From: Acidimicrobiaceae bacterium
Lineage (GTDB): Bacteria; Actinomycetota; Acidimicrobiia; Acidimicrobiales; Ilumatobacteraceae
NCBI GenBank assembly: GCA_024641005.1
Contig: JAHEDX010000001.1
Span: forward strand, 1-64,000
Direction: 5' to 3'
Length of the DNA stretch: 64,000 nucleotides
Below are positions 2,453-62,167 of the stretch, piece by piece (positions within the stretch are counted from its first letter, which is position 1; each line of letters opens with the position of its first letter). The notes beneath the pieces are model-generated. The model saw nothing but the letters and a program-made list of their open reading frames with translations. It had not been told where the DNA came from and did not search any database. Position numbers and translations under genes: made by a program.

Positions 2453-2466
2453 TGACACATGTGTCA
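2453..2466. promoter_or_regulatory. Operator palindrome, TGACA-N4-TGTCA family
   Basis: TGACACATGTGTCA is a perfect 14-nt palindrome in the 64-nt gap between the SDR stop (2500) and the LLM oxidoreductase start (2435). It is one of fourteen related sites in this window and sits where a repressor would cover the promoter of the minus-strand operon. The binding protein is not known; a TetR-type dimer is my inference. Confidence 0.6.
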
Positions 2467-2499
2467 AGTTCGAATGGGACGATGGAAATCGAGGGCTGC

Positions 2500-3408
2500 T
2501 CATCGTGGCCTCATCAACCGACGGTGGGCCGCCCTGCCCTCCTCGAAGGCTGCACCGAACTCGACCCCTGGGTCGTCGCCGAGCAGGTCGGGCTCGTGGT
2601 CGCGCACGAGTTCGGGTGTGAGCTCGTCGGCATCGAACCCTTCGGTCACCCGCAGCGCGAAGCGGGCGACGCGGCCGCCCACGGCGCTGAGCACCTTTCC
2701 GTTGAGCGTGCACGACTCGTGTGCCAGCCACGCCGCGACGGGCGCCACCTGGGCGACGTCCAGCCGACGCGACCACTCGTCGCCTTCTCCGGTCTGCCAC
2801 GTCGTGGGCGCCACCTTCGAGCGCGCCGACATCGCCGTGTAGGCCATCGGCGCGATCGCATTGACGTTGATGCCGAGCGGGGCCCCCTCGAGCGACAGGC
2901 TGCGCGTGAATCCCCAGATCGCAGCCTTGGACGACGCGTAGGCGCTGGACCCGGCGACGCCGAGCAGGCCGGAGTTCGATGTCGTCGAGATGATCCGACC
3001 GAAGCCCTGTTCGACCATGTGCGGCCACGCCGCGTGGGTGACGAGGAACGTCCCGCGGAGGTTGACGGCGATCACGCGGTCCCAGATCTCGACGGTCATG
3101 TCCGCGAACGGCGACGAGCGCAGCACGCCGGCGTTGTTGATGACGATGTCGACCCGGCCGAAGGCGTCGATCGCAGCTGCGATCGTGGCTGCCGCTCCGG
3201 CCTCGGTGGCGATGTCGCCGGCCGCGACCACTGACCGTCCGCCGGCCGCGGTGATGGCCGCGGCGACCGAGTGGGCTTCCGGCTCGGCGAGATCGTTCAC
3301 GACGACGGCCGCCCCCCGGTCGGCCAGCAGCCGTGCGTGGGCGGCGCCGATGCCGGTGCCGCCGCCAGTGACGACGGCGACACGATCGTCGAATCGCAGT
3401 GCGGTCAC
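2500..3408 (-). CDS. SDR-family 3-hydroxyacyl-CoA dehydrogenase (MFE-2/17beta-HSD4-like)
   Basis: A classical short-chain dehydrogenase of 302 residues that starts RFDDRVAVVTGGGTGIG and VVVNDLA, the pattern of the dehydrogenase part of peroxisomal multifunctional enzyme 2. It has NNAG and the catalytic YASSK. The family oxidises (3R)-hydroxyacyl-CoA with NAD. An upstream ATG at 3483 is in frame, but I chose GTG 3406-3408 because it overlaps the preceding stop as GTGA, implying translational coupling. The extended C-terminus (after VGGRVARFALRVTEGF) matches MFE-2 relatives rather than 250-residue SDRs. It forms a two-gene operon with the SDR at 3405-4289. Confidence 0.8.
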   Translation of the reverse strand: MTALRFDDRVAVVTGGGTGIGAAHARLLADRGAAVVVNDLAEPEAHSVAAAITAAGGRSVVAAGDIATEAGAAATIAAAIDAFGRVDIVINNAGVLRSSPFADMTVEIWDRVIAVNLRGTFLVTHAAWPHMVEQGFGRIISTTSNSGLLGVAGSSAYASSKAAIWGFTRSLSLEGAPLGINVNAIAPMAYTAMSARSKVAPTTWQTGEGDEWSRRLDVAQVAPVAAWLAHESCTLNGKVLSAVGGRVARFALRVTEGFDADELTPELVRDHEPDLLGDDPGVEFGAAFEEGRAAHRRLMRPR

Positions 3409-4289
3409 GACTGCTCGCGCATCAGGTCGAGCACATCGGGAGGAACCATGTTGCCGTAGCCCGAGCCCGGCCAGTTGAACCACCCGGCGGAGGCGAACGT
3501 GCCGCCATCGGGATGCAGCGTGGTGCCGGTCAGGTACGACGACAGGCCGGACGCGAGGAACACCACGGCGTTCGAGATGTCGGCGGGAACGCCGAGGCGG
3601 CCCATCGGGATCGACACGCCGACGTTGAGCGGGTCGAGCATCGGGTGCTGCCCGGTGTCGCCGTCACCGCTGATGCCGATCATGTTCGGGGTCGGGGCGA
3701 GGTCGGGGGCGACACAGTTGACGCGGATCCGTTCTGGGGCGAGCTCGACGGCGAGCGTGCGGCTGAACTGGGCGACGGCAGCCTTGGCCGCCGAGTACAC
3801 CGCGAAGTTCGGCGCTGCCCGGTACCCCTCGATGGTGGTGAGGCTGATGATGCTGCCGCCGCGACCGCCGGCCCGCATCGCCGGGATCGCCCGTGACGTG
3901 GCGTGCAGCACGTGCGTGAGGTTGGTGCGGATCAATGCGTCCCAGGCCTTGGGGGTCTGGTCGCTGAACGGTGCCCGGAACGTGCCACCGACCACGTTCA
4001 CGAGCGTGTCGAGCCGGCCCCACCGCTCGGCCGCAGCGTCGAACAGGACGTCGAGCACGTCGGGATCGCGAGCGTCGCCGGTGTGCGCGATCGCGTCGTG
4101 GCCGTCGGCGGCGAGTGCCGCACCGATCCGCTCGGTGGCGGCTTCGTCGCGGTCGACCAGCGCCACTCGTACCCCATTGGCGGCGAGGTCGAGCGTGATC
4201 GCTTCGCCAAGACCACCCGCCCCGCCGGTGACGACGGCGACCGTGCCATCCAGTCCCGCACGCTCGTCCCACCACTGCGAACTGCTCAT
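3405..4289 (-). CDS. Short-chain dehydrogenase/reductase
   Basis: A 294-residue SDR with the Rossmann motif TGGAGGLG near residue 21, a serine-containing strand [15 protein letters not shown], and the catalytic YSAAK. The N-terminal leader [15 protein letters not shown] and the tail [23 protein letters not shown] are longer than in typical family members. It is the first gene of a coupled pair with the MFE-2-like SDR and is transcribed away from a third SDR (4409-5200). Their shared 119-nt control region holds a REP-like palindrome and an operator. Substrate unknown; an oxidised or hydroxylated acyl-CoA or ketone is plausible from context. Confidence 0.85.
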
Positions 4290-4308
4290 GTCACTTCGTC
4301 CCTCCAGT

Positions 4309-4335
4309 TACGAAACGTGCCAGGCACGTTTCGTA
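4309..4335. repeat. REP-like palindrome, copy 1
   Basis: Perfect inverted repeat with arms TACGAAACGTGCC and GGCACGTTTCGTA around a single A (27 nt). This copy lies between two divergent genes, so the element is not only a 3'-end or terminator structure. Confidence 0.85.
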
Positions 4336-4367
4336 CTGTTCCCGGTCACGGTGGTCATTGGTACATT

Positions 4368-4383
4368 CTGACAGAAGTGTCAG
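4368..4383. promoter_or_regulatory. Operator palindrome, TGACA-N4-TGTCA family
   Basis: CTGACAGAAGTGTCAG: 6-nt arms CTGACA and TGTCAG around GAAG, 25 nt before the ATG of the SDR at 4409 and inside the divergent promoter region shared with the SDR pair on the minus strand. Confidence 0.6.
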
Positions 4384-4408
4384 GTACGGATCGGTTCGGA
4401 GGCCCATC

Positions 4409-5200
4409 ATGGATTTGCAGATCGCCGAGAAGTCGTTTCTCGTCGTCGGGGGAACGTCGGGTATCGGGCTCGCCGCAGCCGTCGCTCTGGCGCAGGACGG
4501 CGCCGCCGTGGTCGTCGCCGGGCGCGATCGCACGCGCGCCGACCACGCCGCCGGCCTCGTGCAGGCGGCCGGTGCGCGTTCGGCGTACGCCGTCGTCGGT
4601 GATGCCGGCGCCGAAGGTGGCGCCGCCCGGATCGTCGCCGAGGCGGTCGAGCGGATGGGCGGGCTCGACGGGGTCTGCGTCACGACCGGGTTGATCGGGC
4701 ACGAGCCGATCGAGATCCCTGACGAACGCTGGATCGAGGTGTTTCGCGACGTGGTACTCGGTACCACTCGAACGGTGGAAGCTGCACTGCCACACCTCGT
4801 CGAATCCAAGGGTTCGATCGTGACGACCGCTGCGTACTCGATTCGTGCCCCCGAGATCGCACGGCTGCCGTACGCCTCGATGAAGAGCGCCGTCGCCACG
4901 TTCACCAAGGGCATCGCCAAGACCTATGGCAGGCGGGGTGTGCGAGCGAATTGCATTGCCCCTGGTGCGATCGAGACGGAGGCGCTCACCGCGATCCGTC
5001 AACAGGTGTCGGACGCCAAGGGCATCCCGTACGACGAGGCGCTCGAACGCGTGATGGTGGACGAGTGGGGCCTCGACATCGCCCTCGAACGGCCGGGCAG
5101 GCCCGACGAGGTGGGTGCCCTGATCGCGTTCCTGCTGTCTCCGGTCGCCGGCTACATGACCGGTGCCCTGCTGAACATCGACGGCGGCACCAACTTCTAG
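4409..5200 (+). CDS. Short-chain dehydrogenase/reductase
   Basis: A 263-residue [12 protein letters not shown] near residue 13, [17 protein letters not shown] in the place of the usual NNAG region, catalytic YASMK, and the C-terminal [13 protein letters not shown]. The NNAG motif has become VTTGL, uncommon but seen in divergent SDRs. An in-frame ATG at 4358 would begin upstream of the operator at 4368-4383, so I chose the ATG at 4409, which gives a normal SDR N-terminus. It stands alone, and its stop codon is part of the palindrome at 5199-5231. Substrate not deducible. Confidence 0.85.
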
Positions 5201-7446: not shown

Positions 7447-7947
7447 TCAGGATTCGTCGTCAGCGGTCCAGTTGGTGACGCTGCCCTGGGCGTACTTCGC
7501 AGCTGCCCACGGCGGCAGACGGGTCGGCATCGGGAGCGGCACCATCCGCGCCCCTCGGGCCGCGAGCAATGCATCGAAAGCGGCCTGGTCGCCGGCGAAG
7601 GGCGAGCCCTCTCCGGCGATGAAGCCGTACAGCTCACACCCCTCCGGACCGGCCTCCCAGGGGCCGAACGTGTCGCCCCATTCGAGCATGATGTGGCTGC
7701 CTGCCGTACACACGGTGTCGCCGCAGCGGATCTCGCCCTGAAGGATGAAGTTGATGTGGTCACCCGTGTGGCCGTGTGAGTTGGTCATCGCCCCTGGGTC
7801 CCACTTGTTCCAGAAGGCGACGTAGCGCGGCGACATCTCGATCCACTTCTCCCAGATCGAGGCGGTTCGGCCATCGTCGAACTCGAAGCGCAGCATCTCC
7901 TCTGCCGGCACATCGTCGAGATGCTTGATGCTCGGTCCACCCCTCAT
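7447..7947 (-). CDS. Cupin-domain protein (paralogue of 25717-26214)
   Basis: A 166-residue single-domain cupin with HGHTGDHINFILQGEIRCG (cupin motif 1, histidine ligands) and GSHIMLEWGDTFGPWEAG (motif 2 region). Nearly the same protein, with an identical MRGGPSI start, occurs at 25717-26214. Cupins of this size bind a metal and may be lyases, isomerases or dioxygenases; which applies is unknown. It leads a three-gene operon with a CoA-transferase and a zinc alcohol dehydrogenase, directly behind the operator at 7964-7979, 16 nt from the ATG. The mixture of a strongly conserved WEKWIEMSPRYVAFWN segment and the cupin box suggests a defined subfamily. Confidence 0.8.
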   Translation of the reverse strand: MRGGPSIKHLDDVPAEEMLRFEFDDGRTASIWEKWIEMSPRYVAFWNKWDPGAMTNSHGHTGDHINFILQGEIRCGDTVCTAGSHIMLEWGDTFGPWEAGPEGCELYGFIAGEGSPFAGDQAAFDALLAARGARMVPLPMPTRLPPWAAAKYAQGSVTNWTADDES

Positions 7948-7963: not shown

Positions 7964-7979
7964 CTGACGACTGTGTCAG
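7964..7979. promoter_or_regulatory. Operator palindrome, TGACA-N4-TGTCA family
   Basis: CTGACGACTGTGTCAG, arms CTGACG and TGTCAG (one mismatch) around ACTG, 16 nt upstream of the cupin ATG on the minus strand. Confidence 0.55.
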
Positions 7980-8047: not shown

Positions 8048-9226
8048 TCAGGTACGCGGGAAGTTGTACAGCTCGCGAGCGTTCAGCTCGACGATCTTGT
8101 GGACCTCTTCGTCGGGCACGTCGTGGAAGATCTCGGTGTAGTGCTTGCGGCTGTTCGGCCACAGCGAGTCGGAGTGTGGATAGTCGACCTCGCAGGTGAT
8201 GCGGTCGATACCGATCAGGTTTCGGACCTTGACACCGAACTGGTCGTCGATGAAGCAGCCCCAGAAATGCTTGTCCATCAGTTCGGACGGACGCTGGTCG
8301 AAGTCGATCTTCTGGTACCAGCGGTGACGTTCCCACGTGTAATCGATCCGCTCTCGAATGTAGGGCATCCAGCCGATGCCACCCTCGGCGAGCACGAACT
8401 TGAGCCCGGGATGCTTCTGCAGTACCCCCGAGAACAGCAGATCGGACACCGTCCACATCAGGTTGGTGGCGAACAGCGAGATCGCGACGGCGAACGGGGC
8501 GTTGTCCTGCAAGCCGCCGTCGGCGAGGTTGTCGGTGCTCATGCCAGCCAATCCGAACGACGGGACGAAGCTCGACGAACCGAAGTGCAGCGAGATCGGA
8601 AGGTTGGTCTCCTCCAGAGCGTTCCACACCGGCTCCCAGTGATCGGTGTGGAACGAGGGGAGCTTCAGTGGCACGGGTGACTCGGGGAAGGTGATGCCCT
8701 TGGCCCCGGCGGCAGCGACGCGGTGGATCTCGGCAACGGTCTCATCGACGTTCCAGTACGGCACCATCGCCAGCGGGATGAAACGATCTGGGGCGAACCC
8801 GTACCATTCCTCGAGATTGAAATCGTTCCACGCCGCGATGCAGAGACGGGCGAGTTCCTTGTCGTCAGCCCTGGCGAGCGCGCCCCCGGCGAATCCAGGC
8901 ATCGACGGGTAGCAGCAAGCGACCTGCACGCCGTCGACGTCCATGTCGGCGACGCGCGCTTTGGGGTCGTAGCAACCGGGGATCATCTGGTCGTAGCGGA
9001 CGGGCTCCATGCCGTAGTCCTTCGGCTCCTTGCCGGCCACGGCGTTGAGCCCGATGTACGGGAAGATCTTCCCGTCGTATTTCCAAACTTGATGGCCGCC
9101 CTCGATCTCGACGATTTGGGGCCCGATCTCCCGGTACTTCTCGGGGAGCCGCTCGGTCCAGACCCTGGGGTGTTCGATGAGGTGGTCGTCGACCGAGACG
9201 ATGTGCATATGGTCCTGAAGAGGCAA
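8048..9226 (-). CDS. Amidohydrolase-2 family metal-dependent TIM-barrel protein
   Basis: A 392-residue member of the ACMSD/LigW-type amidohydrolase-2 family. Likely metal-site elements are VSVDDHLIE near residue 12, SLHFGSSSF in the middle, and CEVDYPHSDS near the C-terminus, where the Asp usually completes the site; AEGGIGWMPYIRERID is a further family signature. Members decarboxylate, hydrate or hydrolyse acidic aromatic or ring-opened substrates. It is closest in this window to the protein at 34114-35370, which shares DDHLIE, ITFPE and DYPHSDS. It stands alone, divergent from a small gene at 9278, with a 14-nt palindrome between them and a hairpin after its stop. Confidence 0.85.
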   Translation of the reverse strand: MPLQDHMHIVSVDDHLIEHPRVWTERLPEKYREIGPQIVEIEGGHQVWKYDGKIFPYIGLNAVAGKEPKDYGMEPVRYDQMIPGCYDPKARVADMDVDGVQVACCYPSMPGFAGGALARADDKELARLCIAAWNDFNLEEWYGFAPDRFIPLAMVPYWNVDETVAEIHRVAAAGAKGITFPESPVPLKLPSFHTDHWEPVWNALEETNLPISLHFGSSSFVPSFGLAGMSTDNLADGGLQDNAPFAVAISLFATNLMWTVSDLLFSGVLQKHPGLKFVLAEGGIGWMPYIRERIDYTWERHRWYQKIDFDQRPSELMDKHFWGCFIDDQFGVKVRNLIGIDRITCEVDYPHSDSLWPNSRKHYTEIFHDVPDEEVHKIVELNARELYNFPRT

Positions 9227-9277: not shown

Positions 9278-9622
9278 ATGCGAGACATGATGGCTCAGAA
9301 TCCAGCACACCACGAATCTGACGTTCCTGTCAACACAGACGGCCCGGCGGTCATGGGTGCTGACGGCGCGGACGAGGTGATGGTCGAACGAACCGACGAA
9401 GAAGACCACGACCTTCTGACGTTCGGAGAGGCCGGTGCTCGGCTGAGCGAAGAGGTCATCAAGCAGGAACGGGTGATCGAACGACTCCGATTGGGCGGCG
9501 CCACCGAGGATGTGATCGCCGGTGCAACGAGTCGTCTGGACGCCTTGCGGCTTGCGGCCGAACGCAATCGACCACCCTCGCTCGACAATCTCAAGTCGTC
9601 CGGATTCTTCGGGCAGAGGTGA
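9278..9622 (+). CDS. Small acidic-helical protein of unknown function
   Basis: I do not recognise this family. The 114-residue product has a low-complexity acidic N-terminal part (VNTDGPAVMGADGADEVMVE) followed by a likely helical hairpin: LTFGEAGARLSEEVIKQERV, IERLRLGG, then DVIAGATSRLDALRLAAERN, ending PSLDNLKSSGFFGQR. There is no signal peptide or membrane segment. The start is uncertain: ATGs at 9278, 9287 and 9290 are all in frame and none has a clear Shine-Dalgarno. The regular charge pattern and codon use in the second half support a real protein. It is divergent from the amidohydrolase and may share the operator at 9256-9269. Confidence 0.55.
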   Translation: MRDMMAQNPAHHESDVPVNTDGPAVMGADGADEVMVERTDEEDHDLLTFGEAGARLSEEVIKQERVIERLRLGGATEDVIAGATSRLDALRLAAERNRPPSLDNLKSSGFFGQR

Positions 9623-9664: not shown

Positions 9665-10882
9665 TCAGCGGTCGGGTACGAGTGCCACACCGCTCAGCAG
9701 TCTGCGTGCCGTGCGGGTGACTCCCACTGATTCGACCACCGCCGCACCGTCATCCGACCTCGTGCGAACCGCCACTTCCGTGACGCCCTTGGGGTGAGCG
9801 AGCCGGATCGGACCCTGCGTCGGAGCGCTCAACATGTCGAACGGGATGGTGCCGGGCAATGACGCGGCCGCAGCCACACACATCGCGGTCGTCAGTGGGA
9901 TCGCATGATGGAAGCGCTGCATCGATGTCGACCGCACGATCAGATCGTGGTCCTCGGTTCCGATCACTCGTCGTCCCGCGACCTGGTGTTGACGTCGCGC
10001 CCCGAGTAGTGCGATTCGCGGCAGAGCGGGCGAGCGTTCCAGGGCCTCGGCCTCGGTAGTGCAGAAGCCGAGTGCCACCGCGGCGGCGGCGCGAACCGAC
10101 TCGATCCGCGCCTCGAGCGTGTTGTCGAGGTTCAGTTCGGCGGGGTTGGCGGTCGGATCTATTCCGAGGTCCGCTGCGCTGAGCATCACGACGGGTGCGG
10201 TGACATCGGCGATCGTGACCTCGAAGGTGCCGCCGGACGTCGGTTCGAGGGTGGTGCGGACTCCGCCGGCAGGAAACAGCTGTCCCGTAACCGCGCCGGC
10301 CGGGTCGAGATAGTCGGTGGTGATCGGCGCGGCCGAGCCGGGTACCCCGTCGAGCCGATAGTCGCCGTCCCAAGCGAACTCGCCATCGGCGACGGGCACC
10401 CGAGCGGTGATGCGCCGGCCGGTGTTGAGGTTGTAGAGCCGTACGTCGACGGTTCCGGACGCCGCATCCGCGAGCTCGATGAGACCATCGTCGATCGCGT
10501 ACGGAGCGACCGCTGCCGTCAGATTGCCGCAGTTCCCCTTCGCGTCGACGACGGGCCGGTCGATACCGACTTGGAAGAACATGTAGTCGAGGTCGCAATC
10601 CGTCCGTTCCGAACGACGGACCGCAACCACCTTGCTCGTGGACGACATGGTCCCGCCCAGGCCGTCGATCTGCATCGGGTCCGGCGAGCCCATCAGAGCG
10701 AGCAGAAATCGATCCCGGGCATCGGCATCGCCGGGGAGGTCATCAGCACGGACGAACACGCCCTTGCTGGTGCCGCCTCGCATGATCACGATCGGAAGGC
10801 TGGTCGACGACCGCCGTCGAGACGGAGCAGCGTCGGGCGCTCGGGTCAGCGGCTCGGCTGTGTCGTGAGGTCTGGGGTCCAC
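9665..10882 (-). CDS. PrpF-family isomerase (aconitate/oxalomesaconate-type)
   Basis: A 405-residue protein of the PrpF family, which shifts double bonds in unsaturated di- and tricarboxylic acids (aconitate isomerase PrpF, 4-oxalomesaconate tautomerase GalD). Signatures are IVIMRGGTSKGVFVR (K40 in the substrate loop), IDGLGGTMSSTSKVV, and GNCGN with C118, followed by the second diaminopimelate-epimerase-like half. The GTG start at 10880-10882 lacks an obvious Shine-Dalgarno, and the first 29 residues look like a non-conserved extension. It is the last gene of the GntR-led operon, 21 nt after the dioxygenase-like gene, and probably isomerises the ring-opened product. Confidence 0.85.
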   Translation of the reverse strand: MDPRPHDTAEPLTRAPDAAPSRRRSSTSLPIVIMRGGTSKGVFVRADDLPGDADARDRFLLALMGSPDPMQIDGLGGTMSSTSKVVAVRRSERTDCDLDYMFFQVGIDRPVVDAKGNCGNLTAAVAPYAIDDGLIELADAASGTVDVRLYNLNTGRRITARVPVADGEFAWDGDYRLDGVPGSAAPITTDYLDPAGAVTGQLFPAGGVRTTLEPTSGGTFEVTIADVTAPVVMLSAADLGIDPTANPAELNLDNTLEARIESVRAAAAVALGFCTTEAEALERSPALPRIALLGARRQHQVAGRRVIGTEDHDLIVRSTSMQRFHHAIPLTTAMCVAAAASLPGTIPFDMLSAPTQGPIRLAHPKGVTEVAVRTRSDDGAAVVESVGVTRTARRLLSGVALVPDR

Positions 10883-10903
10883 GTATGACAGCTTCGACGA
10901 CGC

Positions 10904-12043
10904 TCAGAGCCAGGCGCTCGGGTACGCCGGGTCATCTGCGGGAATCGCATTGGTCGTCAGCTGCAGCGGATTGATGATGTCGATGAGTACGGCCCAGAGT
11001 TCGTTCATCAGCCCTGGTTCGGCACGATCGTGACCGGGCTTGGCACCGTGCCCGGCCGCTCGGGTGTGGACCGTCAACTTTTCGAGGCCGTGCACTTGAG
11101 CGCCCTCGCTCGCCACCCGATACAGGATCTCGTCACAGTCCGTGTTGTGATCAGGGATGTTCGGGATCGCGTCCGGGTGGTCAGGGAAACGGGCCGGCGT
11201 GATCGCCGAGACGAGCGCTCCTTCACATTCGAACACTGCGTCCATGTCGGGGTCGAGGCTCACGCGACCACTGAAGGGTTCGACGTCGCGCATGTTCAAG
11301 GCGTAGGGGTACAGCGCCCCCGCCCAGCCCACTACGTCCAACGGGTGACTGTCGAGAACGTAGGTGGTGACGATCTCATTGACCTTCACGGCAATCTCGA
11401 ACTCACCCTTCTCGTCGGTCGGATCGCCGAGCTCGGGAACGCGGATGTCTCGTTCGGAATAGGTGGCCCGCGACATGAACTGACCGACGTTGTTGCGGTA
11501 GCGGGCCGGCGGCTGGATCTGGCCTCTCGTCTCGAGGAGGATCATTCGCTGCGGCTCGGCGTTCGGCAGGATTCGCCATGTGGCCCCGCGCGGAACGCAG
11601 ATGAAGTCCATCGGGCCGTAGTGGAGAACGCCGAACGTGGACTCGAAGGTGCCCGTGCCCTGCACGATGAAGAGCAACTCGTCCCGCTCGGCATTGCGAT
11701 AGAAGCGGTCGCTGGATCGATCCGGAGAAGCGACCGAGTACGACAGATCAGCGTTGAACGCGACGGGTACACGGGAGTCGAGAATGTCGCCAGACGCCTT
11801 CAACAGCGCTGGATCGATGATGTGGTTTCGAACGACTCCTTCGTTCCACGGCTCGAGCGGCAACGTCGTCAGGGGCTCGACGCGGAGCACCCTGCTCGGT
11901 TGGTTGATGCGGTACAGCAGCGACAACGGTCCGTTGAATCCGAGCGAGTTGTGCAGCTCTTCGTAGTAGCGCCCGCCATTGGGTTTTGGCAGCACCGTGA
12001 AATGCTTGGCCGGGATCGTTCCCCGTTCCTGGTAGTACGTCAT
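10904..12043 (-). CDS. Homogentisate 1,2-dioxygenase-like cupin oxygenase
   Basis: This 379-residue protein follows the homogentisate dioxygenase plan: YRINQPSRVLRVEPL at 44-58, SDRFYRNAERDELLFIVQG at 111-129, and YGPMDFICVPRGATWRI at 142-158. Candidate iron ligands equivalent to His335, Glu341 and His371 of the human enzyme are H299 and E305 in HNTDCDE and H332 in GHGAKPG. The C-terminal segment differs enough from true HmgA that another ring or C-C bond is likely to be the target. The long upstream frame covers the next gene, so I took the ATG at 12041-12043. It lies in a cluster with PrpF, hydrolase, lyase and amidohydrolase genes. Confidence 0.75.
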   Translation of the reverse strand: MTYYQERGTIPAKHFTVLPKPNGGRYYEELHNSLGFNGPLSLLYRINQPSRVLRVEPLTTLPLEPWNEGVVRNHIIDPALLKASGDILDSRVPVAFNADLSYSVASPDRSSDRFYRNAERDELLFIVQGTGTFESTFGVLHYGPMDFICVPRGATWRILPNAEPQRMILLETRGQIQPPARYRNNVGQFMSRATYSERDIRVPELGDPTDEKGEFEIAVKVNEIVTTYVLDSHPLDVVGWAGALYPYALNMRDVEPFSGRVSLDPDMDAVFECEGALVSAITPARFPDHPDAIPNIPDHNTDCDEILYRVASEGAQVHGLEKLTVHTRAAGHGAKPGHDRAEPGLMNELWAVLIDIINPLQLTTNAIPADDPAYPSAWL

Positions 12044-12081
12044 GGTTGCTCCTTCAGTGCCGAGATCGGCATCGATCGCCG

Positions 12082-13380
12082 TCAGAAACCTGATCCGAAG
12101 TTGCTGTGAAGCCAATCGGTCACAGCGTCGGTTCCGTCGGCGATACGTGGGCCCGAGGTTCCGTCGGGATGAATCGGGAATCCGAAGTGATCCGCCTTCG
12201 GAATCAGAACCAGATCCTTGACGGCCGATTTCGCGGCGTCGAATGTCGCCCGAACTTTCGTCATTTGTGTGATGTTGTCGCCGAGGTAGTGCACGGTCAA
12301 CAGGGGCTCTTCGAGATGGCCGAGACAGGCTTCGGTGTCGGCGCGGCTGGTGTTGGCACTCCAGGTGCTGAGCCAGGCTTCTGGGGTCAGAAACTTGACC
12401 AGGCCGGACTGGCCACTCTGTCCTGCGAAGTCGCCCATCGCACCGCCGTAGTTGAGCAGATCGGGGCGAAGATGGTTGGTGTAGGCGCAGAGCCGACGGT
12501 CGTCGGGTTCGATCGAGAGGTCGAGCATCGCCGGGTCGGCCATCGTGCGATGCACGACGACGTGCTGGGTGTGTGAAGCAACTCGCTCGCCATGTGGGTC
12601 CGGCCGGGAACGGAACTCGGCCTCGGCGTTGCGGCGATGTTCGATCGAGGCACGAGCGAACGCGTCGATTCGGTCGATCCGAGCCTGCTGTGCCTCGGCG
12701 TGTTTCGTCAGGAAGTCGGCCGAGTACGTACTCCCTTCTGGTAGTTGACGGAAGCCGTTGCGCGGGTCGTACATGTCGAGGGTCGACTCCCATTCGAGCG
12801 GCTTGGTCTCGTCCAAGAGCGATGGGTCGATCCGTTTGCGAAGTGAGATCGCCTCGCCGGGGTGTCCGCCGATGATCACGATCGCGTCTGCTGCCGGCAG
12901 GTCGGCGCCGGGGAGGTCGATCTGGTCTCCGGCCGGTGTGTCGCGTAGTCGCGTCGAGGGCGTCGTCCTGGCCTGCCATTGATAGAACGCCGCGAGCGGT
13001 GCACCGCCGCTGTTTCCCAGAAGTACCACCGTTTCGCACCCACGCGATCGGAGTAGTTGCACACCGGCCGCAACGTCGAGCAGCAGGGTCTCATGGATCG
13101 TGGCGGTGTCGTTGTTGACCCAGCGGCCCGCTCGAGCGAGGACCATGCACCCGGCCTCGACGAGGGGTGGCACGTTGTAGTTGAACGTTTGATCGGTCCG
13201 GGGGTGCATGATGTGCACACCGACCCGTGGCCGTCGTGCAGTCGGTACGTAGAGATGGCCACGCGACCTGCCGCCGTCTTCGGCAACGAGCTGTACAGCC
13301 TCGACCGTGCATCCGGTGATGTCGCCGAGGTTGACGTTCGCACCAGTCGGCAGCCGCGTCGAGTCGCTGAGGGTTGTCAT
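12082..13380 (-). CDS. Alpha/beta-hydrolase
   Basis: A 432-residue serine hydrolase. The nucleophile elbow is VVLLGNSGGAPLA with S124, and a candidate histidine lies near the C-terminus in LIPKADHFGFP. The middle (about 150-340) carries a large helical lid with DMYDPRNGFRQLPEGSTYS and ERVASHTQHVVVHRTMADP. This size and lid fit hydrolases acting on esters or on C-C bonds of ring-cleavage diketones. It is encoded 31 nt after the lyase gene and 38 nt before the dioxygenase-like gene, within the GntR-led operon, so a role in cutting the oxygenated intermediate is plausible but not shown. Confidence 0.8.
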   Translation of the reverse strand: MTTLSDSTRLPTGANVNLGDITGCTVEAVQLVAEDGGRSRGHLYVPTARRPRVGVHIMHPRTDQTFNYNVPPLVEAGCMVLARAGRWVNNDTATIHETLLLDVAAGVQLLRSRGCETVVLLGNSGGAPLAAFYQWQARTTPSTRLRDTPAGDQIDLPGADLPAADAIVIIGGHPGEAISLRKRIDPSLLDETKPLEWESTLDMYDPRNGFRQLPEGSTYSADFLTKHAEAQQARIDRIDAFARASIEHRRNAEAEFRSRPDPHGERVASHTQHVVVHRTMADPAMLDLSIEPDDRRLCAYTNHLRPDLLNYGGAMGDFAGQSGQSGLVKFLTPEAWLSTWSANTSRADTEACLGHLEEPLLTVHYLGDNITQMTKVRATFDAAKSAVKDLVLIPKADHFGFPIHPDGTSGPRIADGTDAVTDWLHSNFGSGF

Positions 13381-13411
13381 GATGGCGTCCGTTTCTGATG
13401 GGTGGGGCGGG

Positions 13412-14287
13412 TCACGCCGGTGCCTCAGGTGGTGGGGTGGTGTTGTATCGAGTGCCCAGAGCGTCGAAATGCGTCTTCCGAACGAGTCGCTGGCGCTCGT
13501 CCCATGACGCGATCGGCGGATCGTGTTGGTTGTTGGTGTCGGTGCGAAGATGTTCGAGGGTCTCGCGAACGGCATGAATGCTCGCCAGCAACGGGAGGTT
13601 CGCGAACAACGCGAAGGTGTAGCCGAGTTCGGCGATGTGCTCGGTCGGCACGTGGGGAGTGACGCCACCGTGCACCAGGTTCAGGATCTTCGGTCCGGGT
13701 ACCTCGGCGGCGACGATGTCGACTTCCTCGATCGTTTGGGGTGCCTCGACGAACACGATGTCGGCGCCGGCGTCGCGATACAAGTTCCCTCGTCGACAGG
13801 CTTCCTCGAGTCCGAACTCGTATCGAGCGTCGGTGCGCGCCACGATGAGGCAGCCTGCGTCTCGACGAGCGTCGCAGGCCGCAGCCACCTTGTCGACCAT
13901 CTCCTCGGCGCTCACCACCGACTTGTCGGCGAAGTGACCACAACGCTTCGGAAATGTCTGATCCTCGATCTGGATCGCGTCGGCGCCGGCGCTCTCGAGC
14001 GCTCGAACCGTTCGCCACACATTGACCGCGTTCCCGAAGCCGGTATCGGCGTCGACGATCAGTGGGATGTCGACGGCCTCCCTGATCGCGGCGACGTGGG
14101 CGACGATCTCGGTCACCGTCAGTAAGCCGATGTCGGGGACACCGAGGAACGTGTTGGCGATCCCGGCGCCCGTGACATACACCGCGTCGAAACCGGAATC
14201 CTCGACGAGTCGTGCTGTCAGGGCGTTCGGCGCGCCGGGAAGGATCGTGACGCTGTCGCGTTCGATCAACTCGCGGATCGTGGTCAC
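13412..14287 (-). CDS. Isocitrate lyase/PEP mutase-family lyase (dimethylmalate- or methylisocitrate-lyase-like)
   Basis: A 291-residue member of the isocitrate lyase superfamily: magnesium-binding VDADTGFGN at 78-86, the active-site loop KRCGH at 114-118 with catalytic C116, and ARTDA further on. Members with this length and KRCGH cleave 2-methylisocitrate, 2,3-dimethylmalate, oxaloacetate or similar acids to pyruvate or oxaloacetate plus a second acid. GTG at 14285-14287 gives the standard VTTIRELIE N-terminus. Placed between amidohydrolase and alpha/beta-hydrolase genes, it is the best candidate for the final C-C cleavage of this operon's pathway, releasing central metabolites. Confidence 0.87.
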   Translation of the reverse strand: MTTIRELIERDSVTILPGAPNALTARLVEDSGFDAVYVTGAGIANTFLGVPDIGLLTVTEIVAHVAAIREAVDIPLIVDADTGFGNAVNVWRTVRALESAGADAIQIEDQTFPKRCGHFADKSVVSAEEMVDKVAAACDARRDAGCLIVARTDARYEFGLEEACRRGNLYRDAGADIVFVEAPQTIEEVDIVAAEVPGPKILNLVHGGVTPHVPTEHIAELGYTFALFANLPLLASIHAVRETLEHLRTDTNNQHDPPIASWDERQRLVRKTHFDALGTRYNTTPPPEAPA

Positions 14288-22051: not shown

Positions 22052-22059
22052 CCAGCTTC

Positions 22060-55415: not shown

Positions 55416-55433
55416 CTTGACACTAGTGTCAAG
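55416..55433. promoter_or_regulatory. Operator palindrome, TGACA-N4-TGTCA family, 18 nt perfect
   Basis: CTTGACACTAGTGTCAAG is a perfect 18-nt palindrome and one of the strongest copies of the motif. It lies 46 nt from the APH-like start and 142 nt from the divergent MarR start. Confidence 0.65.
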
Positions 55434-55575
55434 CCTTCGGACGAGAGGCATCGCAGGCAGCGACAGCGCGAGATCGGTTGCAGGTGGTCGACCCCGTGCC
55501 ATGCCGTGCAAGGAGCGGGCCCTCGTCCAGGCGATGGCTAGCCTGACGCCTGACGACGTGGACCAGAAGGGCAGC

Positions 55576-56094
55576 ATGGACGACTCGACGATTCGCGAGC
55601 TCAATGAGTGCAAGGCGTTGATCCGTGAACGCGCCGCTGGGGAAGCGGCGCTCGGCGACGAGGTGCTCGATCGGATGGAAGTGATGTTCGATCTCAGTCG
55701 CTTCGCGCTCCGGCTCGCCCGCGACTTCGAATCGGTCCACCGTGTCAATGGGCTCACGTGGGCCGGCTTCCGGGTGCTCAACATGCTGTGGGTGATGGGG
55801 GATCTCGGGCCGAGCCGGCTCGCAGTGCTCACCGGGTCGTCCCGAGCGAGCATTTCGAGCGTCATGAACTCCTTGGAGGCGGGCGGTCTGATCGAACGCA
55901 CTGTCGACCCGTCGAATCGGCGGCTCGTCCAAGTTGCGCTGACCGAAAAGGGTCACGGTGCTTTGGCCGAGGCGATCCCCGTGCAGGCGGAACGCGAACG
56001 CAATTGGCTGGCGGTCCTGTCGAGCCAGGACCTCAGCGATCTCAAGCGGATCATGAATCGGTTGCTCGAACAGCCCGATCCACAGCCGTCGTGA
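55576..56094 (+). CDS. MarR-family transcriptional regulator
   Basis: A 172-residue winged-helix regulator: dimer helices MEVMFDLSRFALRLARDFES, HTH region LGPSRLAVLTGSSRASISSV, recognition and wing LEAGGLIERTVDPSNRRLVQ, then VALTEKGHGALAEAIPVQA. The ATG at 55576 has an AGAAGG Shine-Dalgarno; in-frame starts upstream are less likely. It may control the VOC/amidohydrolase/crotonase operon downstream, where overlapping palindromes lie at 56180-56197, or the divergent APH-like gene. MarR proteins commonly sense phenolic or acidic ligands. Confidence 0.86.
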   Translation: MDDSTIRELNECKALIRERAAGEAALGDEVLDRMEVMFDLSRFALRLARDFESVHRVNGLTWAGFRVLNMLWVMGDLGPSRLAVLTGSSRASISSVMNSLEAGGLIERTVDPSNRRLVQVALTEKGHGALAEAIPVQAERERNWLAVLSSQDLSDLKRIMNRLLEQPDPQPS

Positions 56095-56954: not shown

Positions 56955-56992
56955 TCAACGATGGCGCACCCCGACCATTGCGAGGGAATCCG

Positions 56993-58186
56993 ATGACGTT
57001 GACCGGCCCTTACTTCGACTGCGACTCACACATCGTCGAGACCCTCGAGAATCTGACGCGGCATCAGCCCAAGGCGTTCAAAGAGAAGTATCGACTCGAA
57101 CGGCGCGAAACCGACGAGGGCAAGTATCCCTGGTTCCTGAACGGCCAGAAGCTCGCAATTCTCGAAGATGCCACCCGCCCCGGCAACCTGATCCCCAAGC
57201 CGGGTGCCTTGAAGGAGTTCCTGAAAGCTCTCAAAGAGGGCCTCACGACACACGTCTTCGTACCGGCAGGGCCAGAGGTGCTGACGCGCGATGGCCGGCT
57301 CGAGCACATGGACGCGACCGGCGTCGAGGCATCGATCCTCTATCCGGGTGAGGTCATCTCGATCTGGCCGTACTTCACCGAGCCTGCTGATCGCCTCACA
57401 TTGCTGCACGCCTTCAACGAATATCTGTTGGAGGATTGGGGTTTCAACTATCGCGACCGCCTGTACGGCGCGCCGATGCTCGTCCTGGATGACGTCGATG
57501 CCGCGGTGAGCGAAGCGAACTGGATGGTCGAGCACGGTGCACGGGTCGTCCTGATCCCGGCCCAACCGGCCGCTGGGCGCTCACCTGCCGATCCCCACTT
57601 CGATCCGGTCTGGTCGATCCTCAACGAAGCAGGCGTCGTGGTGGCCTTTCACATCGGCGAGTCCGAAGGCACCCACCCGCTCCTGCGAGCATGGAACGAA
57701 ACGGTGACACCGGCGCGACATTCCGCTTCAGCCTGGTTCTGGATGAATGCCTATGGCGAAGCGCCCCTGGTGCACACCCTGTCGTCGATGATCTACTACA
57801 ACCTGTTCGCCCGGTTCCCGAATCTGAGGATCCTCAGTGTCGAGAACGGGGCCGAGTGGGTTCCGCATTTCCTGACCAAGCTCGACAAGAGTCGGGGCAT
57901 GGCGAAGAATGGCGAGTGGCCATGTGGCCAGCTGCCCGAACGGCCGAGCAACATCTTCCGTCAACACGTCGGTGTGGTGCCGTATCCGGAGGACGACGTG
58001 GTCGAGATCACCGCTGCGGTCGGTCCCGACACGCTCTGTCTCGGAACCGACTTCCCGCACCCGGAAGGCGTCGCCAGAGCGCAGGAGTTCGCCGAGCAGT
58101 CGATGGCCGGGATCGACGACGAGTCGACTCGTCGCAAGCTCCTGTACGAGAACGGACGTCGCTTCGTCCCGGTCGGCACCGCGTAG
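56993..58186 (+). CDS. Amidohydrolase-2 family protein
   Basis: A 397-residue amidohydrolase-2 protein: YFDCDSHIVETLENL, LIPAQPAAGRSPADPHFDP, VAFHIGESEGTHPL, LSVENGAEWVPHFLTKLD and LGTDFPHPEG, again the His/Asp metal-site pattern. Of the five copies it is the least like the DDHLIE pair; DCDSH and TDFPHPEG group it loosely with the 14331 protein. It starts with ATG at 56993 after GAGGGA and lies 38 nt after the VOC gene and 9 nt before a crotonase. Reaction unknown; hydration or decarboxylation of an oxygenase product is plausible. Confidence 0.85.
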   Translation: MTLTGPYFDCDSHIVETLENLTRHQPKAFKEKYRLERRETDEGKYPWFLNGQKLAILEDATRPGNLIPKPGALKEFLKALKEGLTTHVFVPAGPEVLTRDGRLEHMDATGVEASILYPGEVISIWPYFTEPADRLTLLHAFNEYLLEDWGFNYRDRLYGAPMLVLDDVDAAVSEANWMVEHGARVVLIPAQPAAGRSPADPHFDPVWSILNEAGVVVAFHIGESEGTHPLLRAWNETVTPARHSASAWFWMNAYGEAPLVHTLSSMIYYNLFARFPNLRILSVENGAEWVPHFLTKLDKSRGMAKNGEWPCGQLPERPSNIFRQHVGVVPYPEDDVVEITAAVGPDTLCLGTDFPHPEGVARAQEFAEQSMAGIDDESTRRKLLYENGRRFVPVGTA

Positions 58187-59077: not shown

Positions 59078-60712
59078 TCAAGGTCCGGTGAGCAGCATCG
59101 TGCTGCTGGGCACGCCACCGCCGCTCGAGACCAGGGCGACGCGGGCGTCGGTCACCTGACGCCCGTCCGCTCGGCCTCGTAACTGCAACACGGCTTCGTG
59201 CAGATACCCGAAGCCGTGTGTCCTGCCCGCCGAGAGCTGGCCGCCGTGAGGGTTGAGCGGCAGACTGCCGCTGAGCGAGATGCGGCTGCCGTCGCCGATG
59301 AAGTCGCTCGCCTCGCCGAGCCCGCAGAAGCCGAGCGCTTCGATCCACGAGAGACAGTTGAACGTGAACCCGTCGTACAGCAGGGCGACGTCGACATCAT
59401 CGGTCGTCAGGTCGGTACGCGACCACAGATGGGCGGCGGGGCCCATCAACTGTGGCTCGTGCGTGATCGTGCCCTGGTCCCACGAGATCCGCTCGATGAT
59501 CTGGGTGCCGACCGCTTCGATCCGGATCGGCGGCTGCCGTAGGTCGGCGCTGGTGTCGGCTGCCGACACGATGAACGCGATCGAGCCGTCACATGGAACG
59601 TCGCAGTCGTACAGACCGAACGGCGTCGAGATCATCCGCGCCGACAGGTAATCGTCCATCGTCATCGGGTCGCGGTAGATCGCGGCCGGATTGAGCGCGG
59701 CGTTGTTGCGGGCGTTGACAGCGATCCGCCCGAGTACGTCGCGGCTGGCGCCGTAGTGGTGCAGATAGTTGTTGGCGTACATGCCGATCCAGTTGGCGGC
59801 CGACACGGCGCCGAACGGCATCCGGTAGGCGAGCATGTCGCCGGTCACCCTGCCGGTGTGAGCAGCGGTCCGGGGGAGCGAAGCGCTGGTGGACTCCCAC
59901 ACCGTGCGATAACAGAGCACGTGGCGACACATGCCGGATGCGACGGCCATCATCGCTGCGATGAGCGCACCGGCCTGTCCTGGGATCTCGGCGCCACCAT
60001 TGATCCAGGTCGGCCGGATCCTCAGCGATTCCTCGACCGGGGTGATGCCACCCTCCGAGTGCCCGCCGTCATAGCCGCCGGCACCTGGGTAGGTCGACAA
60101 GCCGTCGATGTCGTCGAGCGTGAGGCCGGCGTCGTCGATGGCGGTCAGGCACGCTTGGACGGTGAGCCCGACCGGATCGGCCATCAGCCGACGACCGATC
60201 TGCGATGTGCCGATCCCGCTGATGACGGAATGATGCTCGAACTTGGCGGTGCCCGACATCGGCCGCACCGACGAGCGGATGTCGGGGTCCGGTGCTGTCG
60301 GAGCCGGATCGGCGCCCGGAATCGGCTGGAACATCGGCAGCCACACGTCGTCGTACTGCTCGAAGACCACCTGAACCCGCATCCCGATCCCCACGTCTGC
60401 GGGATCACAGCCGATGATGTTGGTGGTGAGCCGCACCCTGGGGTCCTCGTCGATCGCCACGATCGCGATCACATAGGGCGGTGGCAGGTCGGGCAGCCAG
60501 GGATGAGCGTTGATCGTGAAGCCGACCACGGTCGCTGCGCCGTCGACCGCCGCCACCTCGGTCTCGGTCGAGTGACACTCGGCGCACACCGGGCCAGGGG
60601 GGTGCCGAAGCGTGCCGCACGAGCTACACCGCTGGAATCGCAGGTGTCCGTCGGCACCCGAGGTCCAGAAGAATGCGTTCCAAGGCGTCAGCTCCGGGAG
60701 TGGCCGGGGCAT
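59078..60712 (-). CDS. DUF35-thiolase fusion (natural Ltp2-type retro-aldolase fusion)
   Basis: A 544-residue single chain. Residues 1-130 are a DUF35 domain: zinc ribbon C29, C32, C43 and C46 (CSSCG, CAEC) and an OB fold (ATVVGFTINAHPW, VRLTTNIIGC, GMRVQVVFEQY). A Pro/Ala/Asp linker at 131-160 leads to a thiolase-like domain (160-544) with NGGAEIPGQAGALIAAMMAV lacking the nucleophile Cys, LLYDGFTFNCLSWIEALGFC and HGGQLSAGRTHGFGYLHEA. Elsewhere DUF35 and the Ltp2 thiolase are two proteins in one complex. There is no stop or frameshift between them. It follows the PPOX gene by 1 nt. Confidence 0.88.
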   Translation of the reverse strand: MPRPLPELTPWNAFFWTSGADGHLRFQRCSSCGTLRHPPGPVCAECHSTETEVAAVDGAATVVGFTINAHPWLPDLPPPYVIAIVAIDEDPRVRLTTNIIGCDPADVGIGMRVQVVFEQYDDVWLPMFQPIPGADPAPTAPDPDIRSSVRPMSGTAKFEHHSVISGIGTSQIGRRLMADPVGLTVQACLTAIDDAGLTLDDIDGLSTYPGAGGYDGGHSEGGITPVEESLRIRPTWINGGAEIPGQAGALIAAMMAVASGMCRHVLCYRTVWESTSASLPRTAAHTGRVTGDMLAYRMPFGAVSAANWIGMYANNYLHHYGASRDVLGRIAVNARNNAALNPAAIYRDPMTMDDYLSARMISTPFGLYDCDVPCDGSIAFIVSAADTSADLRQPPIRIEAVGTQIIERISWDQGTITHEPQLMGPAAHLWSRTDLTTDDVDVALLYDGFTFNCLSWIEALGFCGLGEASDFIGDGSRISLSGSLPLNPHGGQLSAGRTHGFGYLHEAVLQLRGRADGRQVTDARVALVSSGGGVPSSTMLLTGP

Positions 60713-60713
60713 G

Positions 60714-61190
60714 TCAGAGGCCCGCCAGTTTGCGGAAGTCCCAACTGGTGATCTTGTCGGGGGTGATCCGCACCCAGGCGTGCCGACCGTCGGGCATGAA
60801 CGCGCCGTCGGAGTACTTCTGTCCGAACCGCTGCTCGGCGTCGGCGACGGTCGGGTCCGAGGTGTCGGTGCGCGGCACCTCACCGACGCTTTCGACCCGT
60901 CCGTTCAGCTCGACGCCACGCAACTCCATGTAGTCGTCTCCGGCGTCGATCACCACAGCGACTCGCGGGTCGCGCATCAGGTCGGTCCAGCGCTGGCTCT
61001 TCACGATCGAGTTGAGCCACAGCGCCGAGCCGTCCCACACGAACCAGAGCGGAGCGACATGCGGTGCGCCGTCGGCGCCGACGGTGGCGACGCGACAGGT
61101 GCGCTCGGTCGCGAGGAACTCGTCGACTTCGGTCGGGGTCATTGCGATCTTGCGACCGCGGCGCTGACGCTCGTGGGGTGACGTGGTCAT
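60714..61190 (-). CDS. PPOX-family flavin/F420-dependent oxidoreductase
   Basis: A 158-residue split-barrel protein of the pyridoxamine-phosphate oxidase-like family: TEVDEFLATERTCRVATVGA, APHVAPLWFVWDGSALWLNS, DLMRDPRVAVVIDAGDDYME and VELNGRVESVGE. In actinomycetes many members bind F420 or FMN and reduce quinone-like or enone substrates. The second of two adjacent ATGs (61188-61190) has the better spacing to GAGAGG. Its TGA is 1 nt from the ATG of the DUF35-thiolase fusion, so the two form an operon behind the operator at 61210-61225. Confidence 0.85.
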   Translation of the reverse strand: MTTSPHERQRRGRKIAMTPTEVDEFLATERTCRVATVGADGAPHVAPLWFVWDGSALWLNSIVKSQRWTDLMRDPRVAVVIDAGDDYMELRGVELNGRVESVGEVPRTDTSDPTVADAEQRFGQKYSDGAFMPDGRHAWVRITPDKITSWDFRKLAGL

Positions 61191-61209
61191 CATCTTCCTC
61201 TCGACCGAC

Positions 61210-61225
61210 TTGACAATACTGTCAG
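61210..61225. promoter_or_regulatory. Operator palindrome, TGACA-N4-TGTCA family
   Basis: TTGACAATACTGTCAG, perfect core TGACA-ATAC-TGTCA, 19 nt from the PPOX start. Confidence 0.6.
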
Positions 61226-61289
61226 GCGGTCGCTCTGTCGCCATCGAGCCGATCGGGCGCCCCGCAGGAGTTCTGCGATCCGTGGCGGC

Positions 61290-62060
61290 TCAGACGTGGA
61301 TGCTGAGACCTCCGCCGACCCGCAGGGTCTCGGCAGTCACGAACTTGGCTCGATCCGACACGAGGAACAGCATTGCCTCGACGACGTCCTGCTCCTCGCC
61401 GTCACGGCCGATCACCTGGGTCGCCTTGACCATGTCGACGACCGCCTCGGGCAACTCGGCCCGGATCGTGTCGGTGAAGATCAGCCCGGGAGCGATGGCG
61501 TTGACCCTGATGCCGTCGCCGCCCAGTTCGCGCGCCGACGTGACGGTGACGCCGCGAACGGCGAGCTTCGAGATGCCGTACGCGGTCTGGCAGCCGTCCG
61601 CGGCCGCGGACGAGATGTTGACGATCGAGGCGCCCGGGCGGCCCTTCATCACTGGAGCGGCCGCGAGGGTGCAGATGATCGTGCCCATCAGGTTCACGTC
61701 GAACAGGCTGCGCAGCTTGTCGATGCCCGAGTTGGCCATCGGTTCGTTGAAGGCCTGTGAGTGCAGCCCGGCGTTGTTGATCAGGATGTCGACCCCGCCG
61801 AGCCGTTCGACGACATCGTCGAACATAGCTGCCACCTGGTGCTCGTCGCTGACGTCGCAGTCGTACGAGGTCGCCTCGCCACCGGCCGCCCTGATCTCGG
61901 ATGCGACGCGCTCGCCGGCGGCTGGGTCGATGTCGGCCAGCACCACGTGCGCACCCCGTGCTGCGAGGGACCGGCCGAACGCCTCACCGAAGCCGCGCCC
62001 GCCGCCGGTGATCACGGCCACCCGGCCCTGGTGCTCGTGCGCTGGTTCGGGTTGTTCCAC
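61290..62060 (-). CDS. Short-chain dehydrogenase/reductase
   Basis: A 256-residue SDR: RVAVITGGGRGFGEAFGRSL, VVLADIDPAAGERVA, NNAGLHSQAFNEP, VNISSAAADGCQTAYGISK (Ser, Tyr, Lys) and the tail KFVTAETLRVGGGLSI. GTG at 62058-62060 has a GAGGAG Shine-Dalgarno and is preferred to the in-frame start at 62093. Divergent from the exporter gene, with two TGACA-family operators in the shared 127 nt. It resembles hydroxysteroid and hydroxyacyl dehydrogenases in general; substrate unknown. Confidence 0.86.
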   Translation of the reverse strand: MEQPEPAHEHQGRVAVITGGGRGFGEAFGRSLAARGAHVVLADIDPAAGERVASEIRAAGGEATSYDCDVSDEHQVAAMFDDVVERLGGVDILINNAGLHSQAFNEPMANSGIDKLRSLFDVNLMGTIICTLAAAPVMKGRPGASIVNISSAAADGCQTAYGISKLAVRGVTVTSARELGGDGIRVNAIAPGLIFTDTIRAELPEAVVDMVKATQVIGRDGEEQDVVEAMLFLVSDRAKFVTAETLRVGGGLSIHV

Positions 62061-62097
62061 GTCGTCTCCTCGTTCGGTCGGCTGCCGATCCACGGAC

Positions 62098-62113
62098 CTG
62101 ACATCATCGTCAA
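62098..62113. promoter_or_regulatory. Operator palindrome, TGACA-N4-TGTCA family
   Basis: CTGACATCATCGTCAA, core TGACA-TCAT-CGTCA with one inner mismatch, 37 nt from the SDR start and in the divergent region with the exporter. Confidence 0.5.
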
Positions 62114-62149
62114 GTTACAGGCTGTGCAGGGCCCCGTCGAAGGCGCACG

Positions 62150-62167
62150 GTTGACGGGGCCGTCAAC
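62150..62167. promoter_or_regulatory. Operator palindrome, TGACA-N4-TGTCA family (TTGACG variant, 18 nt)
   Basis: GTTGACGGGGCCGTCAAC has perfect 8-nt arms GTTGACGG and CCGTCAAC, 20 nt before the exporter GTG start. With the site at 62098 each divergent gene seems to have its own copy. Confidence 0.55.

Follow-up and report, generated by a model that had tools for sequence, protein, structure and literature searches.

The closest described systems are those of KstR, KstR2 and BkaR, in which, as proposed here, an autoregulated TetR repressor is combined with a short palindrome at coenzyme A (CoA)-linked catabolic promoters. BkaR binds a palindrome of 16 bp that is present both in its targets and in its own promoter (PMC3920632). 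RutR of Escherichia coli belongs to the TetR family and reads a palindrome of approximately 16 bp (PMC10891134), and Mce3R of Mycobacterium tuberculosis is a regulator of cholesterol and lipid-transport genes (PMC11667970). The present analysis concerns a family of palindromes of the form TGACR-N4-YGTCA found in a stretch of 64,000 nucleotides from an Acidimicrobiaceae bacterium (assembly GCA_024641005.1, contig JAHEDX010000001.1, positions 1 to 64,000), which is referred to as the window. The host is an actinobacterium of a little-studied class; its assembly is split into 175 contigs with a total of 4.14 Mb, and the window covers the initial 64 kb of one that is 110 kb long. The palindromes form one operator family at gene starts, and their most likely reader is a TetR-family protein, here called B, encoded on another contig.

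The window contains 15 exact TGACR-N4-YGTCA sites, of which seven have the strict form TGACA-N4-TGTCA, and an additional degenerate copy with one arm base off is present at 40204. The sites differ from one another in flanks and cores. All 16 have, on one strand or both, a plausible start codon 5-177 bp downstream; genes were called by composition as the longest open reading frames (ORFs), and start positions are approximate. A first-pass annotation of this DNA had listed fourteen such palindromes, each upstream of a gene. The position upstream of genes was borne out, and thirteen of the fourteen proved to have exact cores, at coordinates off by 0-2 bases; the copy at 40204 is the inexact one, and the exact sites at 9319 and 29454 were missing from the list. 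The sites and the genes most often referred to below are the following.

2453 to 2466: operator TGACACATGTGTCA, upstream of the LLM oxidoreductase gene of the next line and the acyl-CoA dehydrogenase gene 387 to 1526 (minus strand)
1542 to 2435, minus strand: F420-type LLM oxidoreductase
4369 to 4382: operator TGACAGAAGTGTCA, between divergent short-chain dehydrogenase/reductase (SDR) genes, 3405 to 4289 (minus) and about 4409 to 5200 (plus)
7965 to 7978: operator TGACGACTGTGTCA, upstream of 7447 to 7947 (minus)
9319 to 9332: operator TGACGTTCCTGTCA, upstream of the PF04909 gene 8048 to 9226 (minus)
29454 to 29467: operator TGACGGTACTGTCA, between an isochorismatase-like gene, 28622 to 29257 (minus), and an epimerase-like gene, 29523 to 30503 (plus)
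34078 to 34091: operator TGACAGAAGCGTCA, upstream of the PF04909 gene 34114 to 35370 (plus)
36592 to 36605: operator TGACAGCGTTGTCA, upstream of a thiolase-fold (Ltp2-like) gene (minus) with likely start ATG 36576
38149 to 38162: operator TGACAGATGTGTCA, between a DUF2889 gene, 36612 to 38105 (minus), and a thiolase gene, 38174 to 39349 (plus)
40157 to 40170: operator TGACACAAGTGTCA, upstream of ABC importer genes from 40348 (plus)
40204 to 40217: degenerate operator TGACACAGGTGTCG, one mismatch, upstream of the same importer genes
48540 to 48553: operator TGACGGATTCGTCA, upstream of ferredoxin 48602, P450 48801 and TetR 50080 (plus)
48801 to 50030, plus strand: cytochrome P450, under operator 48540
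50080 to 50682, plus strand: TetR protein C, a probable regulon member
50728 to 50741: operator TGACAACAACGTCA, upstream of a mycofactocin-type SDR (ATG 50773), an aldehyde dehydrogenase (51593) and an SDR (53171), all plus
55418 to 55431: operator TGACACTAGTGTCA, between an APH-like gene, 53999 to about 55369 (minus), and the MarR gene of the next line
about 55501 to 56094, plus strand: MarR protein D, a probable regulon member
61211 to 61224: operator TGACAATACTGTCA, preceding ATG 61193 of a PNPOx gene (about 61193 to 60714, minus) and upstream of a DUF35-thiolase fusion, 59078 to 60883 (minus)
62099 to 62112: operator TGACATCATCGTCA, between an SDR gene, 61290 to 62093 (minus), and an MFS transporter gene, 62188 to 63708 (plus)
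62152 to 62165: second operator TGACGGGGCCGTCA in the same divergent SDR/MFS region

The counts exceed by far those of simulated sequence. In 200 first-order simulations of the window, TGACR-N4-YGTCA occurred 0.465 times on average and at most 4 times (15 observed), and the strict form 0.025 times and at most once (seven observed). With up to two mismatches allowed, 28 window matches stand against 21.5 expected, a number reached by 8 of 100 shuffles and not significant; for this reason, the claim rests on the exact sites. Genome-wide, the strict pattern is found 18 times, against 1 for the reversed pattern, and the R/Y pattern 63 times, against 4. Five contigs (C138, C50, C75, C115 and C169) account for 41 of the R/Y sites and for 17 of the 18 strict ones, although they make up only 224 kb or 5.4% of the genome; the binomial probability of this clustering of the 41 sites is 2e-36, for contigs that were picked because they hold sites. 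The spacing is also specific. When spacers of 0-12 bases are scanned in the window, 15 sites appear at N4 and 0-2 at each other spacing, and in the 224 kb, scanned from 0 to 14, 41 appear at N4 and again 0-2 at each other value. Nine control palindromes have zero exact matches in the 224 kb, and YTGACRNNNNYGTCAR, the motif with its flanking Y/R, has 36.

Gene cores cover 72.6% of the 224 kb but hold 4 of the 41 sites (binomial 5e-17), far from the equal frequency inside genes that the first-pass annotation had named as an objection; at least two of the four (36592, and L031:19160, where homology starts at 19215) fall in over-extended ORFs. The other objection raised there, chance copies of the -35 box, does not apply either, since both arms are kept and TAnnnT follows 16-18 bp downstream of only 3 of 82 arms (background 14/5362, 0.3%). 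The palindromes are thereby confirmed as one spacing-specific, symmetric family of sites located at gene starts.

Across 100 sites from eight genomes, the extended consensus is ANYTGACR-NWWN-YGTCARNT, a symmetry of 20 bp. Among the positions on which the sites were not selected, A is found three bases before the arm in 58%, C or T immediately before the arm in 90%, and A or T at the central two bases in 75%; at the fifth base of the arm, 58% of half sites have A and 41% have G. Counterpart genes in relatives, which represent other genera and one other family, are again preceded by the motif. Three contigs of G102, a genome from a different genus of the same family, carry 11 exact sites, two of these sites being in gene cores, and 59 further exact sites, 8 in gene cores, were found in regions of seven relatives chosen for regulators or sites. 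Eighteen of the 41 own sites precede a gene whose counterpart, at an identity of at least 60%, also has a site in at least one relative. In the relative G500, the counterpart of the gene behind 2453 and that (72%) of the gene behind 9319 each have a site. The earlier proposal of one operator family, a catabolic regulon and a TetR-type reader is thus supported: the sites are spacing-specific, lie at gene starts and on catabolic contigs, and recur in relatives.

Two regulatory proteins are central to the question of the reader.

L030:13582 to 14247 (contig C115, outside the window), minus strand: TetR protein B, 221 amino acids
L026:1846 to 3177 (contig C50), minus strand: tandem double-TetR protein A, with two TetR_N domains

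The palindrome is probably the operator of a TetR-family repressor, and its predicted reader is B. Among 43 genomes, hand-picked to take in most of the motif-rich ones, a near-full-length B at an identity of at least 45% is encoded by seven (G000, G500, G483, G486, G102, G397 and G234, the last from another family); among the matches listed, the next one falls to 31% at 1.8e-24. In all seven, a site lies 3-27 bp before the start of a B gene, with an exact core in five and one mismatch in two, and sites stand directly before seven of the eight B genes of the large genomes. G397 has B and enriched sites (9/7 vs 0/0 for the control) and no close A (best match 3.3e-12), which separates A from B. 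Structurally, B has an N-terminal TetR helix-turn-helix (HTH) domain (PF00440, 57.5 bits), and its recognition-helix segment SRASFYTYF is invariant in the seven genomes. Its helical model (pLDDT 83) matches TetR folds such as FasR and FadR; these were solved, by their entry titles, with acyl-CoA ligands, and on this model a CoA thioester ligand is plausible for B.

Further motif-rich genomes are G429, G421, G360, G270, G454, G077, G108, G292 and G265, whose best B matches (G429 excepted) lie between 1e-5 and 6e-14, whereas those of the B set are at least as good as 1e-57. G492, with 16/12 sites, no close A and a best B match of 1e-10, at first seemed a counter-example. In this genome (L147, L150), TTGACAACCATGTCAA recurs in several copies near contig starts, with near-identical flanks in the two copies compared, and it is therefore probably a repeated element that mimics the operator pattern.

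A reduced form of the system is present in the genus g7, of which seven small genomes (G352 and six others, located through weak matches of A only) encode B at 50-54%. Here a compact island of six genes encodes an LLM oxidoreductase, an NTF2-like protein, B, an SDR, an isochorismatase-like protein and a PF04909 enzyme. The LLM, NTF2 and SDR genes are found in all seven genomes and the isochorismatase and PF04909 genes are complete in six; between these last two genes, six of the seven carry the identical TTGACGGTAGTGTCAA. Motif counts in these genomes are 0-2 per strand, so the island site may be nearly their only operator. In the window genome, the orthologs are dispersed: the LLM gene 1542-2435 (66%) is at site 2453, the SDR gene L030:10880 (80%) at sites 11797 and 11842, the isochorismatase gene L031:1645 (73%) behind site 953, as part of a probable operon, and the PF04909 gene starting about L031:19215 (73-84%) at site 19160; the NTF2 gene L030:16047 (52%) is without a site of its own. 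It would appear that a one-operator module has spread to about forty operators.

Several observations weigh against B as the reader. The two sites with a core mismatch before B are those of G000 and G234, and a 5-kb stretch around the second B copy of G234 (49%, C4) is free of sites, even when one mismatch is allowed. G484 has A and sites, and B was not found in this genome, which is 79% complete (best match 34% at 1.2e-15). Three of the B genomes (G102, G483 and G486) belong to one genus. A site is also found before A in all six of its close orthologs, one with a mismatch. In g7, no site lies within about 250 bp of B, the site being 2.3-2.4 kb away across the cluster; the seventh genome, G359, has a pattern count of 0/0, and its contig breaks off within the isochorismatase gene. 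The island proteins are 69-100% identical across the seven genomes, which are close relatives and thus amount to about one independent case. Gene-by-gene conservation of the sites is modest to moderate: at an identity of at least 60%, a counterpart with a site exists for 19 of 29 site-bearing genes vs 19 of 44 site-less ones (p = 0.09), and at 50% for 22 of 32 vs 22 of 63 (p = 0.002). Finally, binding, repression, ligand and substrate are all predicted.

If B is the reader, it would sit as a dimer on some forty operators, covering the start region both of the B gene and of the genes behind them. These genes would serve CoA-linked catabolism, with LLM enzymes, SDRs, acyl-CoA ligases, CoA transferases, thiolase/DUF35 pairs, PF04909 enzymes, a P450 and transporters. 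Binding of a pathway intermediate, perhaps a CoA thioester, would release B from the DNA. A, C and the MarR protein would themselves be regulon members, giving layered control.

Among the products of genes at the sites or close to them are acyl-CoA ligases, a CoA transferase, acyl-CoA dehydrogenases, hydratases, thiolases and DUF35 proteins with thiolase-fold partners, as well as SDRs (one of the mycofactocin type), F420-type LLM enzymes, the P450 with its ferredoxin, transporters, two DUF2889 proteins and, by pattern only, a Rieske-motif protein (L026:11318-12397). The "cupin operon" named in the first-pass annotation is weak, as 7447-7947 scores 18.7 bits vs a cut-off of 27. The set looks like an oxygenase-rich, CoA-dependent route for the breakdown of a hydrophobic, perhaps cyclic, compound. 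Shared control would place proteins of no assigned role, such as the two DUF2889 proteins, several PF04909 enzymes and the paired DUF35/thiolase proteins, in a shared pathway.

Both DUF2889 genes (36612-38105 and L026:15982-17010) are directly behind operators, and in G102 the second is found again, together with its site, next to an acyl-CoA ligase. In the ORF 59078-60883, a DUF35-type zinc-ribbon/OB protein and a thiolase-fold (Ltp2-like) protein are joined; other parts of the regulon encode them by two genes. The PF04909 proteins checked were 8048-9226, 14331-15575, 19727-20875, 34114-35370 and 56978-58186 in the window, L030:1460-2677 and L032:5714-6997; all seven align with D-x-H-x-x-E near the N-terminus, H-x-(G/A), E-x-G-x-x-W and D-x-P-H. 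The core PF04909 enzyme of the g7 island (L177:7784-8995) matches PtmU3 and 8sm7 in the PDB, after the uncharacterised best match 4dzi. These "amidohydrolases" may be amidohydrolase-related dinuclear oxygenases rather than hydrolases; according to two reports, the distinguishing features of such oxygenases are not settled (PMC10811679, PMC10401708).

If the proposal holds, a large catabolic network of mostly uncultured actinobacteria gains an operator, a set of genes and a repressor candidate that can be named. The growth of regulons could also be studied on it, as a natural series in which one repressor family governs a single operator at one end and about forty at the other.

A more elaborate scheme, in which the single-domain B and the tandem, Mce3R-type A both read TGACR-N4-YGTCA, is regarded as doubtful. 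Here, some forty operators would answer two ligands, the regulon would have grown from a one-operator island of six genes that persists in streamlined relatives, and several predicted dinuclear oxygenases would take part in the breakdown of a cyclic terpenoid- or steroid-like compound.

It is improbable that A is the main reader, with the two HTH domains of one chain bound to each palindrome and B only a target. At an identity of at least 50%, A occurs in six of 221 genomes of the family, all six of them motif-rich; both strand counts reach at least 8 in the six and in 2 of the 215 others, a threshold that was set after seeing the data, with four of the six sharing a genus. The sites before its own orthologs and the case of G484 also favour A. 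On the other hand, its two recognition helices, the first of which resembles that of B, are unlike each other, operators and B occur with no close A in G397 and in the g7 genomes, and in G234 no site precedes A (40%), yet one stands before one of the B genes. The best solved match of A, by both sequence and fold, is the remote Mce3R 9b7y (59.1 bits; Foldseek E 2e-7, template-modelling (TM) scores 0.52/0.58, root-mean-square deviation 11.5), which shares the architecture of two TetR_N domains and has only 18% identity in the fold match; against the KstR model, A scores 40.5 bits, with a cut-off of 280. The operator of Mce3R is asymmetric and non-palindromic (PMC11667970), whereas the conserved element before A, to which A binding is putative, is a palindrome. 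A is rejected as main reader less firmly than the candidates that follow. More distant double-TetR-like proteins (28-33%) are present in other genomes of the order; two such loci (L120, L094) have, near position 1400, CTGAC-N6-GTTAG palindromes some 70-100 bp ahead of the gene-start region.

That C reads the sites, autoregulated through the ferredoxin-P450-TetR operon behind site 48540, is highly improbable. It is a TetR protein by Pfam and the third gene behind that site, and its best orthologs are in G102 and G234, which also carry B. Nevertheless, these orthologs have no site nearby, the compared regions around its 42% relatives in G038 and G146 are without an exact site, and C has no match in the G352 island (L124), the one g7 island compared. 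C had been the choice of the first-pass annotation for gel-shift work; B, and after it A, fit better.

There is only a very small probability that the palindrome is read by an OmpR-family response regulator. TGACA-N4-TGTCA is the printed consensus of E. coli CusR and Pseudomonas aeruginosa CopR (PMC12428095), and AAGTGACA-N4-TGTCATTT is a putative GraR box (PMC3128592). The strict consensus occurs 7 times in the window and 18 times in the genome, but the sites here accept G at the fifth arm position (41% of half sites), precede catabolic genes and track the TetR genes B and A. The E. coli CusR site AAAATGACAAnnTTGTCATTTT has fixed inner A/T (PMC11195947), whereas inner bases vary here. Metal-resistance families were absent from the scanned site-adjacent proteins, and no search aimed at response regulators was made.

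The probability is smaller still for the MarR protein D, divergent from the APH-like gene. A perfect strict site lies in this divergent promoter, but a 74% relative in another Acidimicrobiaceae metagenome-assembled genome sits in a 12.5-kb locus without any site, even with one mismatch, and in G102, a motif-rich genome, the MarR match is only a remote one (2.9e-7). C, D and a CusR/CopR-type response regulator are rejected as main reader, the last of these on the arm bases, the catabolic targets and the link of the sites to B and A.

Least probable of all, and strongly disfavoured, is that the palindromes are not the operators of one protein and are chance copies, -35 boxes or a repeated element: the loose window count, the few TAnnnT arms above background and the partly repeated sites of G492 speak for it, and the spacing specificity, symmetry, clustering, gene-start position, recurrence in relatives and differing flanks and cores of the window sites speak against it.

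Part of the window stands apart from this regulon. The region 9665-28608 (about 19 kb) is without an exact operator and holds a GntR/FCD gene (15645-16403) and PrpF, phosphoenolpyruvate mutase-like and CoA-transferase III genes; it is probably a separate pathway. The GntR/FCD protein was set aside as a reader, having no site nearby, and its 58% relative lies in L036, a locus free of sites. In that locus, the relative of the GntR gene and the 74% relative of the window MarR gene lie close together.

As regards the known systems, the operators of KstR and KstR2 are not known to match the TGACR arms. RutR, which controls a pyrimidine regulon and is remote to B (30.4 bits), has the consensus TTGACCAnnTGGTCAA; the YTGAC-N6-GTCAR outline is shared and the inner bases differ. 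B itself is only remotely KstR-like (30.7 bits to 5ua2, remote also by fold), and orthology to KstR or KstR2 was not found, the NCBIfam matches of B being only FasR and ScbR-type at 1e-8. FasR is the best of these, at 42 bits, far below the cut-off of 330, and FasR of M. tuberculosis is among the best fold matches (6o6o, TM to target 0.78; solved with an acyl-CoA ligand by the title of 6o6n). The Corynebacterium glutamicum FasR site differs from the operator described here (PMC10933834). The BkaR core is GTTA(N)T(N4)A(N)TAAC and does not correspond to TGACR/YGTCA arms (PMC3920632).

The first-pass annotation recognized no described operator in the palindrome. For the TetR operators compared this holds, but the string itself, printed for CusR/CopR and, with flanks, for GraR, is not new; spelled TGACANNNNTGTCA, it also appears in four publications on plant WHIRLY proteins. 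Among the matches listed, neither the string as a TetR operator nor a regulon study of this class was found in the literature, and neither was a case in which the string precedes catabolic genes that neighbour TetR genes. The TetR operators of SAV151 of Streptomyces avermitilis have TGACA/TGTCA half sites too, separated by eight bases in both sites listed (PMC10933834), against four here. With the catabolic arrangement of KstR, KstR2 and BkaR and different arms, the system described here is probably a TetR catabolic regulon with a well-supported candidate repressor.

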